DNA from: Leisingera sp. ANG-Vp
Lineage (GTDB): Bacteria > Pseudomonadota > Alphaproteobacteria > Rhodobacterales > Rhodobacteraceae
NCBI RefSeq assembly: GCF_000813725.1
Contig: NZ_JWLD01000006.1
Span: 44,621 to 108,620 of the forward strand
Length of the DNA: 64,000 nt
Direction: 5' to 3'
Position numbers and translations under genes: made by a program. Below, piece by piece: positions 28,214 to 33,925 of this stretch (positions are counted from its first letter, which is position 1; every line of letters starts with the position of its first letter). The notes beneath the pieces are model-generated. The model ran no database searches, was not told where the DNA came from, and saw nothing but the letters and a program-made list of their open reading frames with translations.

Positions 28214-29629
28214 CTATCGTCTGCCTTTCTTCCGGTTTTTCCAGAAGGGCGGCACATCGCCGGCCATGATGCAGCCGAAGGGGTCAATGTAGTCCTCAAT
28301 CTCCGCCAGATCGTAGGACTTGATCTGGGCCACGACGCTGTCCGCCTTTTTGTAGCTGGACGGCAGCTCTGAGGCATCCACCCCGCCGGCATGGAAGCGG
28401 ATGTCCAGGCCTTCGGTCTCGGCTTGCAGCATCTGTTCCGCCGTCACGGAGCCCATCCGGCGTTTGTGCTCGGACCGGGAGAAGTTCCGCCCGGCGCCAT
28501 GCGGGCTGAAACCCAGGCCATGTGCCGCGTCCTTGCCGCGGGCAACCAGAACCGGTTCCGACATGTTCAGCGGGATCAGGGTCAGCCCGGTGGCGTCGGC
28601 AGCATAGTCACCCCAGGCAGGCGTTGCGCCCTTTCCGTGGTAGTACAGGTCGCCGCGCTTGAAGACGAAATTATGTTCGTTCCAGTAGCGGTCGCCGACA
28701 TCGCCCGTCCGTGCGGCCTCCACCGTCGCCTGATGAATGGCGTTGTGGTTGGCCTTGGTCCATTTGCGGATCAGCTGCAGCGCCTCCCAGTAGTCGCGCC
28801 CTTCCTGCGTGTCTGCCGGGATCCAGGCGTTCTGCTTGGAGGTCTCCGGCGACAGTTCCTTGCGGAAACGCTCGGCCACGGCCATGCCGTTCTTGTAGAG
28901 CACAGCCCCCGGCCCGCGGGAGCCGTGATGGGTCACAATTGCCGTCCGCCCGGTCTTGCGCGAGCGCCCGACAAACAGGAAGTGGTTGCCGTCGCCCTGG
29001 GTGCCCATGTGCTCCTGCGCCATGCGCAAGGACTTGGGGTTGTTCAGAAACGGGTTCTCCCGGAACGCATCCAGAAGCTTCAGCGAGGTTGTGAAGCGTT
29101 TGCCCTGCGGGCGGCCGCCAGGGCCGAAATGGGTGACCGATTGCGCCGCGTCCAGCACCGCCTTCGGATCCGCATTGCCCAGATCGGTGATCATCACCGA
29201 GCAGCAGATGTCTGCAGAGTGCATGCCCGGATGAATCGCGTTCCGCGCCGCGGCAATTCCGCCAACAGGGATCGTGCCCACCGGCCCGGCCGGGCAGGCG
29301 TCCGGCATGATAGCGCCGGCCTCAACCGTCGGTGTGCGCATCAGCTCGGTCATGGTCTGGCGAACCTGCGCGACATTGGTTTCCTCGTCCGGATGGGCTG
29401 CGTCGATGTTCTCCTCAAACGGCACTTCGCCGCGGGCGCGCAGGCTCATGGTGACGGGTTCAGGCGGGATCTCGCCTTCCAGCTCCTGGCGGATGCGCAC
29501 CAGGCCAAAGCCCTCGGCCCGCATTTCGTTGGCCTTCTCCAGCAGAGCCGGAAACTGCTTGCCGGGGCGGTGGCCCCAGTCTTTCAGGTGCGCGCCGGTT
29601 ACGGGTTCGCGTGCCAGTTCGTCAGTCAT
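28214..29629 (-). CDS. rtcB: RNA-splicing ligase RtcB
   Basis: RtcB joins RNA 2',3'-cyclic-phosphate or 3'-phosphate ends to 5'-hydroxyl ends using GTP and Mn2+. The 471-residue protein belongs to the longer RtcB type. Key motifs: SADICC (138-143) carrying the metal-binding cysteine, GDGNHF (212-217), THHGSRGPG (233-241), HGKGATPA (331-338) and PHGAGR (376-381), whose His377 should be the guanylylated residue. It is the last protein gene of the RNA-repair locus, 23 bases after the last RNA unit of the upstream array. No rtcA gene accompanies it. Confidence 0.94.
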   Translation of the reverse strand: MTDELAREPVTGAHLKDWGHRPGKQFPALLEKANEMRAEGFGLVRIRQELEGEIPPEPVTMSLRARGEVPFEENIDAAHPDEETNVAQVRQTMTELMRTPTVEAGAIMPDACPAGPVGTIPVGGIAAARNAIHPGMHSADICCSVMITDLGNADPKAVLDAAQSVTHFGPGGRPQGKRFTTSLKLLDAFRENPFLNNPKSLRMAQEHMGTQGDGNHFLFVGRSRKTGRTAIVTHHGSRGPGAVLYKNGMAVAERFRKELSPETSKQNAWIPADTQEGRDYWEALQLIRKWTKANHNAIHQATVEAARTGDVGDRYWNEHNFVFKRGDLYYHGKGATPAWGDYAADATGLTLIPLNMSEPVLVARGKDAAHGLGFSPHGAGRNFSRSEHKRRMGSVTAEQMLQAETEGLDIRFHAGGVDASELPSSYKKADSVVAQIKSYDLAEIEDYIDPFGCIMAGDVPPFWKNRKKGRR

Positions 29630-29652
29630 CTGTTTATCTCACTCCTCAATGG

Positions 29653-29806
29653 CCCCGGCGACAAGGGGGAAGAAACTGGTGGGAGGCCCGCCCCGCATCC
29701 GAATGGGCGGATGCGTTTTCCGTCTGGGCGCCGGCACGGAGGGGAATTGAACCCGCTCGGCCTGTCCCGGTTTGGTGCCATGTAGTTCCTTCGGCATTCG
29801 CCGGGG
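29653..29806 (-). ncRNA. Y RNA-like unit d with degenerate tRNA-like insert
   Basis: Reads on the minus strand. The terminal stem is CCCCGGCGA (29806-29798) with TCGCCGGGG (29661-29653), 9 perfect pairs. Next to it are the shared core AATGCCGAAGGAACTACA and, on the other side, CCCTTGTC. The insert has a T-loop-like TTCAATT and a GGCAC/GTGCC closing stem followed by a perfect 7-bp hairpin GCATCCG-CCCATT-CGGATGC. Its end CAATTCCCCTCCGTGCC looks like a tRNA-Ser/Leu 3' portion. The unit ends 23 bases before rtcB. Ro60 binding is inferred from location and resemblance to bacterial Y RNAs. Confidence 0.65.
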
Positions 29807-29825
29807 TTTTCCTTTCAATTTGGGC

Positions 29826-29915
29826 CAGGAGGACAATGGGGGCGGGACAGCGGACTCGAACCGCGAGGCGTGAGCCTCTCAACCAGATGATGTAGTCCCG
29901 CAGGCATTCCTCCTG
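29826..29915 (-). ncRNA. Y RNA-like unit c with mini-tRNA module
   Basis: Minus strand. Terminal stem CAGGAGGA (29915-29908) with TCCTCCTG (29833-29826). The core GGAATGCCTGCGGGACTACA is identical over 20 bases to unit a, and the 3' side has CATTGTC. Inside, GCGGGAC (29901-29895) pairs with GTCCCGC (29848-29842) like an acceptor stem, enclosing a D-arm-like TCATCTGGTTGA, a short GAGGC-TCAC-GCCTC hairpin where the anticodon arm would be, and a T arm GCGG-TTCGAGT-CCGC. It therefore folds as a tRNA elbow lacking an anticodon. Confidence 0.68.
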
Positions 29916-29926
29916 CAGTATTGTGT

Positions 29927-30002
29927 TGGCTGGAAAGGCAGGACTCGAACCTGCAACCTGCGGCACCAAAAGCCGTTGCTCTTCCAATTGAGCTACTTTC
30001 CA
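29927..30002 (-). tRNA. tRNA-Gln (anticodon TTG), embedded in the Y RNA-like array
   Basis: A complete cloverleaf can be drawn by eye. Acceptor TGGAAAG/CTTTCCA; D arm GCTC-AATTGGAA-GAGC; anticodon arm with loop TTTTGGT giving anticodon TTG and four good pairs plus an A-C mismatch at the top; variable loop AGGTT; T arm GCAGG-TTCGAGT-CCTGC; then discriminator G and an encoded CCA. The T-A first acceptor pair is typical of tRNA-Gln. It sits 8 bases from unit b and 11 bases from unit c on the same strand as Ro60 and rtcB. It may be a functional tRNA or a decoy/substrate; aminoacylation is not provable here. Confidence 0.75.
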
Positions 30003-30010
30003 TTGCGGTC

Positions 30011-30148
30011 CCCGGCGACAAGGGGGTGGTGAAACGATCCTGCTCTACCAGACTGAGCTACGCGCCATCATGTGGTTGGCTGGCGCGGCGGGATTTGAAC
30101 CCGCGACACGGGGATTAGATTCCTGTAGTTCCACCAGCATTCGCCGGG
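30011..30148 (-). ncRNA. Y RNA-like unit b containing a circularly permuted tRNA
   Basis: Minus strand. Terminal stem CCCGGCGA (30148-30141) with TCGCCGGG (30018-30011). The core AATGCTGGTGGAACTACA lies on the 5' side and CCCTTGTC on the 3' side. The insert is a tRNA in permuted order: first the 3' half (TCTAATCC, variable loop, T arm GCGGG-TTCAAAT-CCCGC, acceptor strand CGCGCC plus AGCCA), a short linker, then the 5' half (acceptor strand GGCGCG, TA, D arm GCTC-AGTCTGGTA-GAGC, AGGATC). The break lies in the anticodon loop; TCTAATCC resembles an Arg(UCU)-type loop. Bacterial Y RNAs of the YrlA type are known to carry a tRNA-mimicking module. Confidence 0.75.
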
Positions 30149-30151
30149 AGT

Positions 30152-30296
30152 GGAACCGATAACGCAGACTGGTCGGTATGGGGTCCCGCTCATGCCAGAA
30201 AGCGCCCGCAAGAGTGGAGGAGTCGAACCTCCAAGTTCCCCTGATTGTGCCCCCGCAATGTCTGCACTATTGGCTATCGCTTACTCCTTCGGTTCC
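30152..30296 (-). ncRNA. Divergent Y RNA-like unit with tRNA-like module
   Basis: Minus strand, between units a and b. GGAACCGA (30296-30289) and TCGGTTCC (30159-30152) form an 8-bp terminal stem, 3 bases from unit b. The 3' side reads GTTATCGG, close to the CTTGTCGC of other units. The interior holds a degenerate tRNA-like segment with acceptor AGGAGT/ACTCTT (30288-30283 and 30215-30210), an ATTG/CAAT anticodon-like stem and a perfect T arm GGAGG-TTCGACT-CCTCC. The GGAACTACA core is replaced by AGGAGTAAG, so the assignment to the same family is weaker. Confidence 0.5.
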
Positions 30297-30306
30297 ATTC
30301 AAATCC

Positions 30307-30381
30307 GGTCAGGCGGACAAGAGATTTGCGAGACATCCGACAGGTTTCAAAGCTGTAGTCCCGCAGGCATTCCGCCTGACC
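30307..30381 (-). ncRNA. Short Y RNA-like unit a
   Basis: Minus strand, starting 5 bases after the Ro60 stop codon. An 11-bp terminal stem, GGTCAGGCGGA (30381-30371) with TCCGCCTGACC (30317-30307), closes 75 bases. The core GGAATGCCTGCGGGACTACA is identical to unit c and the 3' side has CTCTTGTCC. The interior is only about 30 bases and contains no T arm, so this appears to be a minimal Ro60-binding unit without tRNA mimic. Confidence 0.68.
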
Positions 30382-30386
30382 TGTTT

Positions 30387-31943
30387 TCAAAATTCGATCT
30401 TTTCGATCTCGCCAACCCAATGGTCCGGGCCGGTCTGATCAGCTGCAAAGGCGGCGATCTGGTCAAAGACCGCATCCGAGAAGCCGCCGACGTTCAGCAC
30501 ATCCTTGCGCGTCTGCGCCTGGGTGGTGCCGTAGGGCGCGATGTCGATGCAGACCAGTTTGGCCTTGGGGTTGCGGCGCTTGATCCGCTCCCATTCCTGC
30601 ATCATCGCCGTGCCCTGACGCCCGCCGCGGGCATCCGCCCACGACTGGTTGTCCGAGACGAACACCACCAGATCCGGCGACCGGCCGCGCTCGTTCAGCC
30701 ATTTCAGCGGCGCCGAGCAGTTGGTGCCGCCGCCACCCAGCGCCGCCAGCTTTTCGGCATTGGTGAGCACAGTGTCCCGCGGCTGCAGGCGCACGCTGCG
30801 CACATCAAAGTCGAACGGCAGCACCTGGCAGCCGCGGTTCACCCGGGCAAAGGCCGCGGCAACCAGAGCGGCCACGTCCACGTGGCGCACCGCCGAGGCT
30901 GCCCCCGGACGGTAGCCGGTGACCGGCCAGGTCATCGAGCCGGACACATCCGGGCACACCACCACCTGGCCTGCAGCCTTGGGCACGTTGGCGACCGCGG
31001 TCTCCATCGCGTCATGCAGGGCATCCACGATCTGCTGCGGCATGTCGGGCGCAACATTCTGCGCTGCCACCATCAGCTGGTACGGGAATACCCGTGCCTT
31101 TGCGATGACCGCCGGGTCGCGCAGCAAGGCTGCAACGTGGTCCACGTTCTTTTGAACCTGGAATACACCGTGGCGGTGGAAGGTGTTCAGGTTCTGGCGA
31201 ACCATCTGCCACGATCCCTTGCGGGCGATCCGGGCCCAGTGCTGCGGTGCCAGCGGCAGCTGGGTCAGCATCTGGAACGGCACATCCGGCACCGGCCCCT
31301 TGCCGGTTTCCTTGAACACCATCCAGTCCTGCACCACCTGCGGCAGCCGTGCCGCATTGCACGGCCGCCCGACGATCCAGGCAAACAGCGCCTCCCGCTC
31401 CGGGGTTGCCGGTTTCGGGTGCACCATCCTGATCACATCCGCCAGCGACGGGTCGTTGCCGATGTTGGCCTGCAGCAGCGCCCGGTCGGACGCCGTGTTC
31501 AGCCAGTTCTGCACCATCGCCTTGGGCGCAGAGCCCAGCGATTTGCGTCCCGTCTGGCCGGAGCGGATCACCTGCACAAAAGTGCGCAGCATCTTGCCGT
31601 TATCCACCCCCCGGCCAAAGACCGCACGGAACAGCACCGGGTCGCGGCGCGCCAGAACCGCCAGCAGCACGGCCGGCATGTCCTTCATATGCCCGTTCTT
31701 GCGGGAATAGACCGCCGCCCGGGCCAGAAACTCCGGGGGCACCGCTTCAGCGGTGTCGACAGTGTACTCCAGCTCTTCCTGAGGGCTCTGATAGTACATG
31801 CCGCCGAAGGTGCCGGTTACAGCCACCTGCGCCAAGGCATGCGCATCGGAATAAGCGTAGGCCGGCGCGCCTGCGGCGTTCCTTGTGTCTGCTTTCGGCA
31901 GCAGCCGGCCCTTCAGCGATGCAAACACGGATTTGTTTGCCAT
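30387..31943 (-). CDS. rsr: Ro60-like TROVE domain protein (Rsr)
   Basis: A 518-residue orthologue of the Ro60 autoantigen. Residues 1 to about 320 form the HEAT-repeat TROVE ring that binds Y RNAs and misfolded RNA ends; residues about 325-515 are a von Willebrand A domain with the MIDAS motif DVSGS (332-336) and GGGGTNCSAPL. The ATG at 31943 (MANKSVFASL) matches relatives; an in-frame start at 31982 would add 13 unsupported residues. It is divergent from rtcR and upstream of an array of Y RNA-like units and rtcB on the same strand. In bacteria Ro60 with Y RNA acts in RNA quality control with PNPase and is often encoded with RtcB. Confidence 0.93.
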   Translation of the reverse strand: MANKSVFASLKGRLLPKADTRNAAGAPAYAYSDAHALAQVAVTGTFGGMYYQSPQEELEYTVDTAEAVPPEFLARAAVYSRKNGHMKDMPAVLLAVLARRDPVLFRAVFGRGVDNGKMLRTFVQVIRSGQTGRKSLGSAPKAMVQNWLNTASDRALLQANIGNDPSLADVIRMVHPKPATPEREALFAWIVGRPCNAARLPQVVQDWMVFKETGKGPVPDVPFQMLTQLPLAPQHWARIARKGSWQMVRQNLNTFHRHGVFQVQKNVDHVAALLRDPAVIAKARVFPYQLMVAAQNVAPDMPQQIVDALHDAMETAVANVPKAAGQVVVCPDVSGSMTWPVTGYRPGAASAVRHVDVAALVAAAFARVNRGCQVLPFDFDVRSVRLQPRDTVLTNAEKLAALGGGGTNCSAPLKWLNERGRSPDLVVFVSDNQSWADARGGRQGTAMMQEWERIKRRNPKAKLVCIDIAPYGTTQAQTRKDVLNVGGFSDAVFDQIAAFAADQTGPDHWVGEIEKIEF

Positions 31944-31965
31944 TTCTCTCGTCCTCGTTTGTTGA

Positions 31966-31981
31966 TGGCAGAGTTTTGCCA
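31966..31981 (-). promoter_or_regulatory. Imperfect sigma-54-like element upstream of Ro60
   Basis: TGGCAAAACTCTGCCA on the minus strand, 23 bases before the Ro60 start. It has TGGCA (-24-like) and TGC (-12-like) blocks, but 9 rather than 10 bases separate GG from GC, so it does not satisfy the standard spacing. It is also itself an inverted repeat (TGGCA...TGCCA), so it might instead be a protein-binding site. Confidence 0.35.
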
Positions 31982-32079
31982 CGAGGCCCTCGAGTGAGCG
32001 AGAAAAAGCATGAAGTGATTTATGTAATTGATTTCATTTTGAAAAATCGGAAATTGCTGTTTTCCCCTCTTGATTGTAC

Positions 32080-32113
32080 TATCCATTGGTATACCAATTT
32101 ATCTAAATGGATA
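32080..32113. promoter_or_regulatory. Nested palindromes directly upstream of rtcR
   Basis: ATTGGTATACCAAT (32085-32098) is a perfect 14-bp palindrome. It overlaps a wider inverted repeat, TATCCATT (32080-32087) and AATGGATA (32106-32113). They lie 5-38 bases before the rtcR start in an unusually AT-rich stretch (about 31995-32115). Candidate binding site for RtcR or another regulator of the divergent promoters. Confidence 0.55.
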
Positions 32114-32117
32114 ACAC

Positions 32118-33698
32118 ATGCGAAACATCGTCATCGGCTTTCTCGGCACCCAGCTTGATATGGGTAAAAAGCGGCGCTGGCGCCCGACGCTCAGCCTGGT
32201 TCAGCATGGCAGCTTTCATGTGGACCGGCTGGAGCTTCTGTTCGACATTAAGTTCAACCGCCTTGCTCATCAGGTGAAGCGCGAAGTTGAGGAGGCCTCG
32301 CCCGGTACGGAGGTGCTGCTGCAGGAGCTGAACCTGGACGATCCTTGGGATTTCCAGGAGGTCTATGGCAAGCTGTTCGACTTCGCCCGCGGGTATGGCT
32401 TTGATGAAGACCGGGAAAAGTACCATGTGCATCTGACCACCGGCACCCACGTGGCGCAGATCTGCTGGTTCCTGCTGACCGAAAGCCGCCATGTGCCTGC
32501 ACGGCTGATCCAGACCGGCCCGCCCGGGCCGGAGGAAGCGGCCGCGAAATTCGACATCATTGACCTGGATCTCAGCCGTTACAACGCGCTGCAGCAGCGG
32601 TTCGACCAGCTGTCGCGGGAGTACAGCGATCAGCTGAAGGGCGGGATCGAAACCCGGAATCCGGCTTATAACGCCTTGATAGATCAGATTGAGCTGGTCG
32701 CAGGCAGCTCCGATGAGCCGATCCTGCTTCTGGGTGAAACCGGTACTGGTAAAAGCGAGCTGGCCGGCCGCATCTATAATCTGAAGCTGGACCGGCGCCG
32801 GGTGAAAGGGCGGCTGGTGCATGTAAATTGCGCCACGTTGAACGGGCCGGACGCGGTCGCAACGCTGTTTGGCCAGCGCCGCAGCTACCTGGGGCAGGCA
32901 GGGTCCGAGCGCAGCGGCTTGCTGCGCGAAGCTGACGGCGGAGTGCTGTTTCTCGACGAAGTGGATGAGCTGAGCCTTAGTATGCAGGCCATTCTTTTGC
33001 ACGCGCTTGAAACCGGGCGGTATTATCCGCTGGGGTCGGACCATGAAGTTTCAAGCCGCTTTCAGGTTGTTGCAGGTGCCAGCCGTGATCTGCGTGCGTT
33101 GTCAGCCGAAGGGAAGTTCCGCACCGATCTGCTAGCACGGCTGGCCATGTGGAGCTTCAGTTTGCCTCCGCTGCGCGCGCGCCGGGAGGATATTGAGGCA
33201 AATCTGGTCTTTGAGCTGGCGCGCTCGGAACGGGTGCTGGGCATTCAGGTCGGTTTCAACGCCGATGCGCGGGAGAAATTCCTTCGTTTTGCCCAGGATC
33301 CAGGGACGCTGTGGCCAGCCAATTTCCGAGACTTCAGCGGATCGGTCCGGCGCCTGTGCACCCTGGCGCCCCGCGGCAGGATTACCCGGGCGATGGTTGA
33401 GGGGGAAATCTGCAGATTGCAAGCGGACTGGCAGGCCGCCAGTCCTGATGCTGATGTCAGGCTGGTGGAGCAGGTTGTGGGCGCGGAGGCGGCGGACCTT
33501 GATCCGTTCGACAGGGTGCAGCTGGCTGAAGTTGTGCGTGTCTGCCGGCGGTCGCCAAATCTAAGTGCGGCCGGCCGAAGCCTGTTTTCGGCATCGCGCC
33601 AGAAGCGCAAGATCCAGAATGACGCGGACCGGCTGCGAAAATACCTGCAAAAGTTCGGCTTGAGCTGGGAGGCTGTCACCGCGGGCCGTTTGGGCTGA
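32118..33698 (+). CDS. rtcR: RNA-repair regulator RtcR (CARF + AAA+ + HTH), atypical
   Basis: A 526-residue orthologue of RtcR, the regulator of RNA-repair operons. Residues 1-165 are the CARF-type sensor, with the conserved TTGTHVAQICWFLL region (107-120). The AAA+ domain has Walker A GETGTGKS (206-213) and Walker B GGVLFLDE (274-281). The C-terminal helix-turn-helix region ends with the family sequence DADRLRKYL. At the place of the sigma-54-contacting GAFTGA loop it reads SYLGQA (256-261), so only the last residue is kept. In Escherichia coli and Salmonella, RtcR responds to tRNA fragments. It is divergent from Ro60, 174 bases away. Confidence 0.9.
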   Translation: MRNIVIGFLGTQLDMGKKRRWRPTLSLVQHGSFHVDRLELLFDIKFNRLAHQVKREVEEASPGTEVLLQELNLDDPWDFQEVYGKLFDFARGYGFDEDREKYHVHLTTGTHVAQICWFLLTESRHVPARLIQTGPPGPEEAAAKFDIIDLDLSRYNALQQRFDQLSREYSDQLKGGIETRNPAYNALIDQIELVAGSSDEPILLLGETGTGKSELAGRIYNLKLDRRRVKGRLVHVNCATLNGPDAVATLFGQRRSYLGQAGSERSGLLREADGGVLFLDEVDELSLSMQAILLHALETGRYYPLGSDHEVSSRFQVVAGASRDLRALSAEGKFRTDLLARLAMWSFSLPPLRARREDIEANLVFELARSERVLGIQVGFNADAREKFLRFAQDPGTLWPANFRDFSGSVRRLCTLAPRGRITRAMVEGEICRLQADWQAASPDADVRLVEQVVGAEAADLDPFDRVQLAEVVRVCRRSPNLSAAGRSLFSASRQKRKIQNDADRLRKYLQKFGLSWEAVTAGRLG

Positions 33699-33848: not shown

Positions 33849-33925
33849 TGGTAGCGGAGGAGGGACTTGAACCCCCGACACGCGGATTATGATTCCGCTG
33901 CTCTAACCAACTGAGCTACTCCGCC
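33849..33925 (-). tRNA. tRNA-Met (CAT)
   Basis: A full cloverleaf on the minus strand: acceptor GGCGGAG/CTCCGCT with encoded CCA, D arm GCTC-AGTTGGTTA-GAGC, anticodon arm GCGGA-ATCATAA-TCCGC (anticodon CAT), T arm with GGGGG-TTCAAGT-CCCTC. The standard G1-C72 type end indicates an elongator-type rather than initiator tRNA. The alternative, an Ile2 tRNA with modified CAT, is less likely by overall sequence. Confidence 0.93.

Follow-up and report, generated by a model that had tools for sequence, protein, structure and literature searches.

A Ro60-RtcB locus of Leisingera sp. ANG-Vp with an array of predicted Y RNAs, a further structured RNA and a tRNA

In the rsr-yrlBA-rtcBA operon of Salmonella, as set out in the available part of its description (PMC7790460), Ro60/Rsr comes first, two Y RNAs and then rtcB follow on the same strand, and rtcR is divergent. 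According to the same part of that source, RtcR binds 5′ tRNA fragments that bear a cyclic phosphate, and RtcA plays an important part in induction; for E. coli, the accessible text of PMC9650030 describes RtcAB as required for RtcR activation. In bacteria, a Y RNA connects Rsr with PNPase, as stated in the part of a review at hand (PMC8394870). A predicted operon of this layout lies in Leisingera sp. ANG-Vp, within a stretch of 64,000 nucleotides (nt), here called the window, of a genome (G000) that is 99.65% complete. Compared with the Salmonella operon as far as described in PMC7790460, the window has four units with a Y RNA signature, a fifth structured RNA (U2) and a tRNA in place of two Y RNAs, rtcA is missing, RtcB is of a divergent type, RtcR lacks the GAFTGA motif, and neither a sigma-54 promoter nor rpoN was found.

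A second system, an inducible operon of 26 tRNAs co-regulated with rtcB under TrcR, has been described in Anabaena (PMC10272220). It resembles the locus proposed here in that silent extra tRNAs, induced by translation stress, are co-regulated with rtcB. Unlike in the window, the 26 tRNAs are carried on a plasmid, the regulator is a ribbon-helix-helix repressor, there is no RtcR homologue and rtcB is located elsewhere; neither Ro60 nor Y RNA is named in the accessible part of PMC10272220, from which all these statements are drawn. The literature search made, which covered some sources in part, returned no earlier account of such arrays. The Leisingera operon is best read as one of the known rsr-Y RNA-rtcB kind; its switch has likely become independent of sigma-54 and of RtcA, and its RNAs have likely multiplied into an array of putative Ro60 partners and back-up tRNAs. 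With a probability of roughly 0.58, the four YrlA-signature units, U2 and a second tRNA-Gln would be co-transcribed with Ro60 and rtcB in a tRNA-damage-induced repair operon, whose RtcR is likely independent of sigma-54.

The RNA array between Ro60 and rtcB

On the minus strand, Ro60 (31943-30387) is followed by a gap of 757 bases and by rtcB (29629-28214), whereas rtcR (32118-33698) is divergent on the plus strand. The gap is filled, on the strand of Ro60, by an RNA array spanning 30381-29653, in which the elements follow one another in the direction of transcription as unit 1, U2, unit 2, tRNA-Gln(UUG), unit 3 and unit 4, ahead of rtcB. Unit 1 starts 5 nt past the Ro60 stop codon, and unit 4 ends 23 nt ahead of the rtcB start. 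Conservation was assessed in 107 gaps downstream of Ro60, comprising the window, 80 named loci (the top 80 among 559 or more, so that close relatives are over-represented) and 26 unnamed loci; 14 gaps were removed as duplicates, leaving 93 distinct gaps for all counts. RtcR is divergent in 92 of the 93 distinct loci, the remaining one (L134) being without an RtcR match, and an RtcB gene lies downstream in 84. Profile matches and this conserved synteny thus confirm the divergent rtcR and the one-strand order of Ro60, RNA array and rtcB that a sequence-only reading of the window had proposed; its non-coding 757-base gap with several Y-type RNAs and a complete tRNA likewise stood, through an Rfam match to YrlA and a strict scan for units, and through ARAGORN and RF00005, respectively.

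A unit counts in the strict scan if an arm of 6 bp or more (each G-U pair scoring half) abuts AAUG on the 5′ side and UUGU on the 3′ side; modelled on the window and a small number of relatives, the scan undercounts distant loci. It found 275 units in the 93 gaps, with at least one in 85 and at least three in 54 gaps, and a maximum of seven. The controls were 50 dinucleotide shuffles of all gaps, which yielded a mean of 0.18 units and never more than one per shuffle, the antisense strand, which yielded none, and 1.33 Mb of mainly coding DNA flanking the 80 named loci, which yielded three on both strands. The inner stem, which is outside the search pattern, reaches a score of 6 in 257 of the 275 units, compared with 37% of cross-paired controls. 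The units are thus kept in related rtcR-Ro60-rtcB loci, where lack of conservation had been named beforehand as an outcome that would refute the sequence-only reading.

All four window units show the YrlA signature of outer stem, AAUG...UUGU loop, inner stem and CUAC. Unit 1 (30307-30381, minus strand; strict-scan gap positions 6-80) is a minimal unit of 75 nt, without a tRNA-like head. Unit 2 (30010-30149, minus strand; gap 238-377), with 140 nt and a permuted tRNA-like domain, corresponds to YrlA: the Rfam model RF02553 matches at 30147-30009 with 72 bits, above the gathering threshold of 69, as the sole YrlA match in the gap. Unit 3 (29826-29915, minus strand; gap 472-561; 90 nt) and unit 4 (29653-29806, minus strand; gap 581-734; 154 nt) carry a T-arm-like head. 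The four units are like RF02553 in their closing stem, AAUG/UUGU loop and CUAC, but unlike it unit 1 has no tRNA-like head and units 3 and 4 have a T-arm-like head only; for units 1, 3 and 4, Rfam reported nothing even at E values up to 1. Units at least 60% identical to units 1 to 4 occur in 54, 78, 48 and 68 other loci, respectively, and for unit 1 an alignment of 13 sequences was made. Across the gaps the heads vary, from minimal units of 65-80 nt through T-arm units to YrlA-like units with T- and D-arms, and in six of seven related loci examined YrlA exceeds the Rfam gathering threshold, once or twice per locus.

U2 (core 30154-30275, minus strand) is a different, conserved structured RNA, closed by a long stem and bearing a T-arm-like hairpin. 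It recurs in nine other loci with nhmmer E values below 1e-8, two of which (L063 and L065) are nearly identical. Together, the ten sequences give a consensus with 42 pairs; 11 show changes on both sides, a number that none of 500 shuffles (0/500 as high) and no slid register reached. In Rfam, this covariation-supported RNA has no match. An ordinary Y RNA is ruled out for U2, which lacks the AAUG/UUGU signature and has a consensus fold of its own. Of the five stem-closed units of the sequence-only reading, five structured units have accordingly remained, but one of them is not of the Y type, and the spacing of 3-19 bases given for them holds if U2 is delimited by the GGAACCGA/UCGGUUCC closure specific to the window, as read from the sequence. 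Single-sequence folding gave z-scores of -3.6, -2.6, -2.9 and -1.2 (clipped) for units 1 to 4, of -1.1 for the tRNA and of +0.95 for the window copy of U2 (clipped to 150 nt), which alone folds no better than its shuffles; because these scores are mixed, the case rests on conservation. The elements are packed tightly across the gaps, with a median spacing of 17 bases and at most 20 bases in 167 of 249 cases. Six loci (L066, L090, L091, L093, L094 and L103) have Ro60-rtcB gaps of about 2-3 kb with long stretches outside units and tRNAs.

Ro60/Rsr (30387-31943, minus strand) has 518 residues from its conserved start, which is likely at 31943 rather than at 31982, given the conserved MANKSVF. Its von Willebrand domain matches vWA_Ro60 (PF25045) with 61.3 bits (cut-off 27.7), and residues 15-501 match the Rsr structure 2nvo (E 1e-21), with the TROVE family PF05731 (21.7, cut-off 23) and NF041674 (83.6, cut-off 900) remaining below threshold. 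A DVSGS motif at residue 332 is presumably the metal-site motif. The rtcB gene (28214-29629, minus strand) encodes a divergent RtcB-family RNA ligase of 471 residues that matches PF01139 with 120 bits and scores 65 against the NCBIfam equivalog cut-off of 407. Its motif region could be aligned with P. horikoshii RtcB (4dwr), and the motifs ICCSV (141), GDGNHF (212), HHGSRG (234), HNFVF (319) and HGAGR (377) are taken to provide the metal ligands and the guanylylated histidine. Two types of RtcB occur at the Ro60 locus among the 80 named loci: rtcA is nearby in 9 of 9 loci with the canonical type and in 1 of 63 with the type of the window; no RtcB was seen in the other 8.

The proposed RtcR switch

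The rtcR product (32118-33698, plus strand), with CARF-type and AAA+ domains, exceeds the equivalog cut-off of NF038308 (678.3 bits, cut-off 650) and contains the RtcR N-terminal domain PF06956 (245 bits). It keeps GETGTGKS, FLDEVDE and FRTDLLAR, which presumably are Walker A, Walker B and the arginine finger, and at the GAFTGA position it reads SYLGQA at equal length (residues 256-261, bases 32883-32900). The lack of GAFTGA is not confined to the window. GAFTGA is kept in 24 loci, 23 of them with a sigma-54 promoter (TGGCAYR-N4-YYG) before Ro60, whereas it was not found in 68 loci, in 67 of which the promoter pattern is absent as well; the two discordant loci are L130, which has GSFTGA and the promoter, and L056, which has GAFTGA and no promoter by this pattern. 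A quick Ro60 tree, in which 32 of 90 inner branches are left open, unites 66 of the 68 GAFTGA-less loci in one clade (SH-like approximate likelihood-ratio support, SH-aLRT, of 95) and requires two changes. The strict scan, with its undercount in distant loci, averages 3.6 units per GAFTGA-less locus and 1.2 per locus with GAFTGA.

No match to rpoN was found in the Leisingera genome itself; among 26 genomes searched for rpoN and rtcA, one of them (G264) just 64% complete, rpoN is present in eight, including 6 of 24 GAFTGA-less ones. Plain sigma-54 control as in Salmonella is rejected here, as GAFTGA, the promoter and a recognisable rpoN were not found. The lack of rtcA that had been read from the window extends to the assembly, in which PF01137 has no match; it has one in 1 of the 26 genomes, and rtcA is nearby in 10 of the 80 named loci, 9 of the 10 with the canonical RtcB type.

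Two conserved blocks lie between Ro60 and rtcR, both on the minus strand. Where the sigma-54 promoter would be expected, a conserved pattern at 31964-31984 recurs near Ro60 in 27 of 68 GAFTGA-less and 0 of 24 GAFTGA loci, compared with 0.35% of mononucleotide shuffles. An operator-like TATCC...GGATA block beside the rtcR start (32076-32113) is a candidate RtcR site from the alignment; as a TATCC...TATAA block with a 9-of-10 match, it is found near the rtcR start in 50 of 68 GAFTGA-less and 18 of 24 GAFTGA loci (mononucleotide shuffles, 1-2%). Both patterns were defined after viewing the sequences and their alignment. As the latter block is common to both groups and the Ro60-side block is confined to GAFTGA-less loci, the pair suggests that RtcR may have kept its site and changed its polymerase partner. 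A precedent exists in the same bacterial class: NtrC of Rhodobacterales and Caulobacter is likewise an enhancer-binding protein that has lost the sigma-54 loop, and the GAFTGA-less NtrC of Rhodobacterales is reported to use sigma-70 (PMC10274813, from the part available). There, the loop is deleted, whereas in the window RtcR it is substituted at equal length, and RNA would be sensed via the CARF domain. Taken together, RtcR of the window likely works without sigma-54, and since it lacks GAFTGA and no rpoN is recognisable, the Salmonella switch is not transferable unchanged.

The array tRNAs and their possible roles

The tRNA of the array (29927-30002, minus strand) is, as predicted by ARAGORN and RF00005 (65.7 bits), a complete tRNA-Gln(UUG) with cloverleaf, anticodon and encoded CCA. 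It is a divergent second copy, sharing 55 identities in 77 aligned columns with another tRNA-Gln(UUG) of the same genome; the latter gene rules out that the array tRNA is the sole tRNA-Gln(UUG). ARAGORN called 64 tRNAs in the 93 gaps, of which four doubtful ones (two of 94-95 nt, one inside a Y unit and one without isotype) were removed. The 60 kept tRNAs, located in 39 gaps, are Asn (22), Lys (13), Pro (13) and Gln (12), and no other isotype occurs; CCA is encoded in 59. The mainly coding flanks of the named loci contain 12 tRNAs of eight isotypes in 1.33 Mb, which corresponds to an about 70 times lower density. Of the 46 other tRNA genes found in the Leisingera genome, 7 belong to these four isotypes; the list (47 by Rfam) is incomplete, as it holds no Ile or Tyr gene. 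The interpretation that had come with the sequence-only reading, of a single damage-controlled transcript for the ligase, the Ro60 ring and its RNAs, is partly supported; it had overlooked that the tRNA is a divergent second copy and belongs to one of four isotypes.

The array copies differ from the housekeeping ones. Housekeeping copies 96-100% identical to those of the Leisingera genome exist for Asn in 11 of 11 genomes, for Gln in 4 of 4 and for Lys in 6 of 6, each count including that genome itself, and the array copies that matched, which were not all of them, are 75-84% identical to the housekeeping genes; Pro was compared with the housekeeping genes of the own genome. Within one isotype the array copies have a mean identity of 84-90%, so that few events may underlie each isotype. 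The best Ro60 tree requires at least 17 changes between presence and absence of array tRNAs, whose content thus turns over, yet within the four isotypes. Of the 68 GAFTGA-less loci, 38 carry array tRNAs; of the 24 loci with GAFTGA, one does (L113). The acceptor stem is paired throughout in 19 of 22 Asn, all 12 Gln, 11 of 13 Pro and 1 of 13 Lys copies. In array tRNA-Pro (13 loci, e.g. L084, L091 and L113), position 37 is A in all 13, and it is G in two housekeeping genes of the own genome. Escape mutants in the anticodon loop have been proposed for phage tRNAs (PMC10264068, in the text available); as a general explanation they are not supported here for Asn, Lys and Gln.

On the favoured reading, one transcript would combine repair by RtcB, RNA handling by Ro60 with several Y RNAs and replacement by the tRNA. 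Its operation could be as follows: Nucleases leaving 2′,3′-cyclic-phosphate ends would cut tRNAs, and the 5′ tRNA halves would bind the CARF domain of RtcR directly, with no need for RtcA. RtcR, positioned at the conserved TATCC/GGATA block, would then recruit a sigma-70-type polymerase, and the long transcript would be cut by tRNA-processing enzymes. The released Y RNAs may load Ro60 rings, their different heads steering the rings to different partners or substrates, of which PNPase is a known one, while RtcB would re-join the cut tRNAs and the array tRNAs would restore the lost isotypes. Repair and RNA handling rest on family knowledge; replacement by tRNA is least certain, because 30 of the 68 GAFTGA-less loci lack an array tRNA and some Pro and Lys copies have odd residues. 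A bolder version is less probable, namely that of a damage-triggered tRNA bank: broken tRNAs, via a sigma-70-converted and RtcA-free RtcR, would induce a single transcript encoding the ligase, differently headed Y RNAs that retarget Ro60 and spare Asn, Lys, Gln and Pro tRNAs of just those isotypes that enemies cut.

Several observations weigh against this reading. The tRNA is dispensable, since it is missing as a kept call from those 30 GAFTGA-less loci, 28 of which have at least one strict unit and among which are the two nearest relatives, L073 and L077. The limitation to four isotypes could stem from as few as four founder events. Anticodon loops are of the housekeeping type in 16 of 22 Asn, 9 of 12 Gln and 9 of 13 Lys array copies and thus give no sign of a nuclease-proof design, except perhaps in Pro. 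U33 is lost in 3 of 13 array tRNA-Pro, and 12 of 13 array tRNA-Lys have a C2-A71 acceptor mismatch where the housekeeping gene of the own genome has G2-U71, both of which may weaken their use in translation. Regarding the switch, the loss of GAFTGA is essentially one event, so that its match with promoter loss does not amount to many independent cases; the operator-like block, adjoining the rtcR start, may in part be its ribosome-binding site, and both upstream patterns were drawn post hoc. Finally, RtcA is reported as important in Salmonella and RtcAB as required in E. coli, so that the signal may differ here; with RtcA gone, either the nuclease itself leaves the cyclic phosphate or the signal is another one.

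Other roles of the tRNAs have to be weighed against replacement. They could be cutting marks: RNase P and the tRNA 3′-end enzymes, recognising both the tRNAs and the tRNA-like heads, would release the Y RNAs and split the Ro60 message from that of rtcB; the tight packing of the elements would suit this, as would the position of the window tRNA between two Y units, but 54 of the 93 gaps have no kept tRNA, 47 of these with at least one unit, and neither particular isotypes nor correct anticodons would be needed; this role is unlikely. The same 54 gaps, the repeated gain and loss on the Ro60 tree and the odd residues of the Pro and Lys copies would also be expected of mere passengers, that is, if the tRNA-like units made the array a recombination hot spot where tRNA genes are gained and lost without serving any function. 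Passengers would, however, hardly be restricted to four isotypes among 60, reach their high density relative to the flanks and persist as copies with CCA across genera, and the idea appears quite improbable.

The tRNA and the tRNA-like parts might instead be decoys that occupy anticodon nucleases or tRNA-modifying enzymes during an attack. This would agree with the largely unchanged anticodon loops of Asn, Lys and Gln and with the T- and D-arm sequences in many Y units; a decoy would have no need to preserve CCA and the acceptor stem, yet CCA is almost always encoded and the stems are mostly paired, except in Lys, and in Salmonella no YrlA fragments were seen upon tRNA cutting (PMC7790460, in the part available). 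A decoy function is very unlikely.

The locus bears on two open questions, the role of bacterial Y RNAs and Ro60 beside RtcB and the necessity of RtcA in the RtcR signal. With RtcA and sigma-54 naturally removed and the Y RNAs multiplied, marine relatives that can be cultured offer a way to test both. Should the array tRNAs prove to be inducible spares, tRNA repair and tRNA replacement would be encoded together on a single transcript, and the choice of isotypes would indicate which tRNA nucleases these bacteria encounter.

Distribution and neighbouring features

The spread of Ro60 is patchy, as for an accessory module: of the genomes searched, 3 of 21 in the genus, 25 of 394 in the family (one with a weak partial match), 10 of 385 in the class (full-length in 7) and 17 of 398 in the phylum (full-length in 10) have it. 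Its relatives below 60% identity include 54 plasmid records, 43 of them from Rhizobium, and 39 phage records; Myxococcus phage Mx1 (OR576727.2, 56915-58561) encodes a full-length Ro60 that is 46% identical to that of the window. Eleven full-length Ro60 loci taken outside the family, of which at least one (L254) and probably L255 are already among the 93, have 0-4 strict units in the 1.5 kb after Ro60, and in this interval no tRNA was called except for a tRNA-Ala 15-84 nt downstream in L271. One locus, L120, groups with alphaproteobacterial loci although its contig is labelled, perhaps wrongly, as Mycobacterium sp. KBS0706.

Beyond the 3′ end of rtcR, the window contains a tRNA-Met gene (33849-33925, minus strand). 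A tRNA-Met is also located on the rtcR side in L073 and L077, of the same genus, and in L087, and this gene is possibly the insertion site of the locus.

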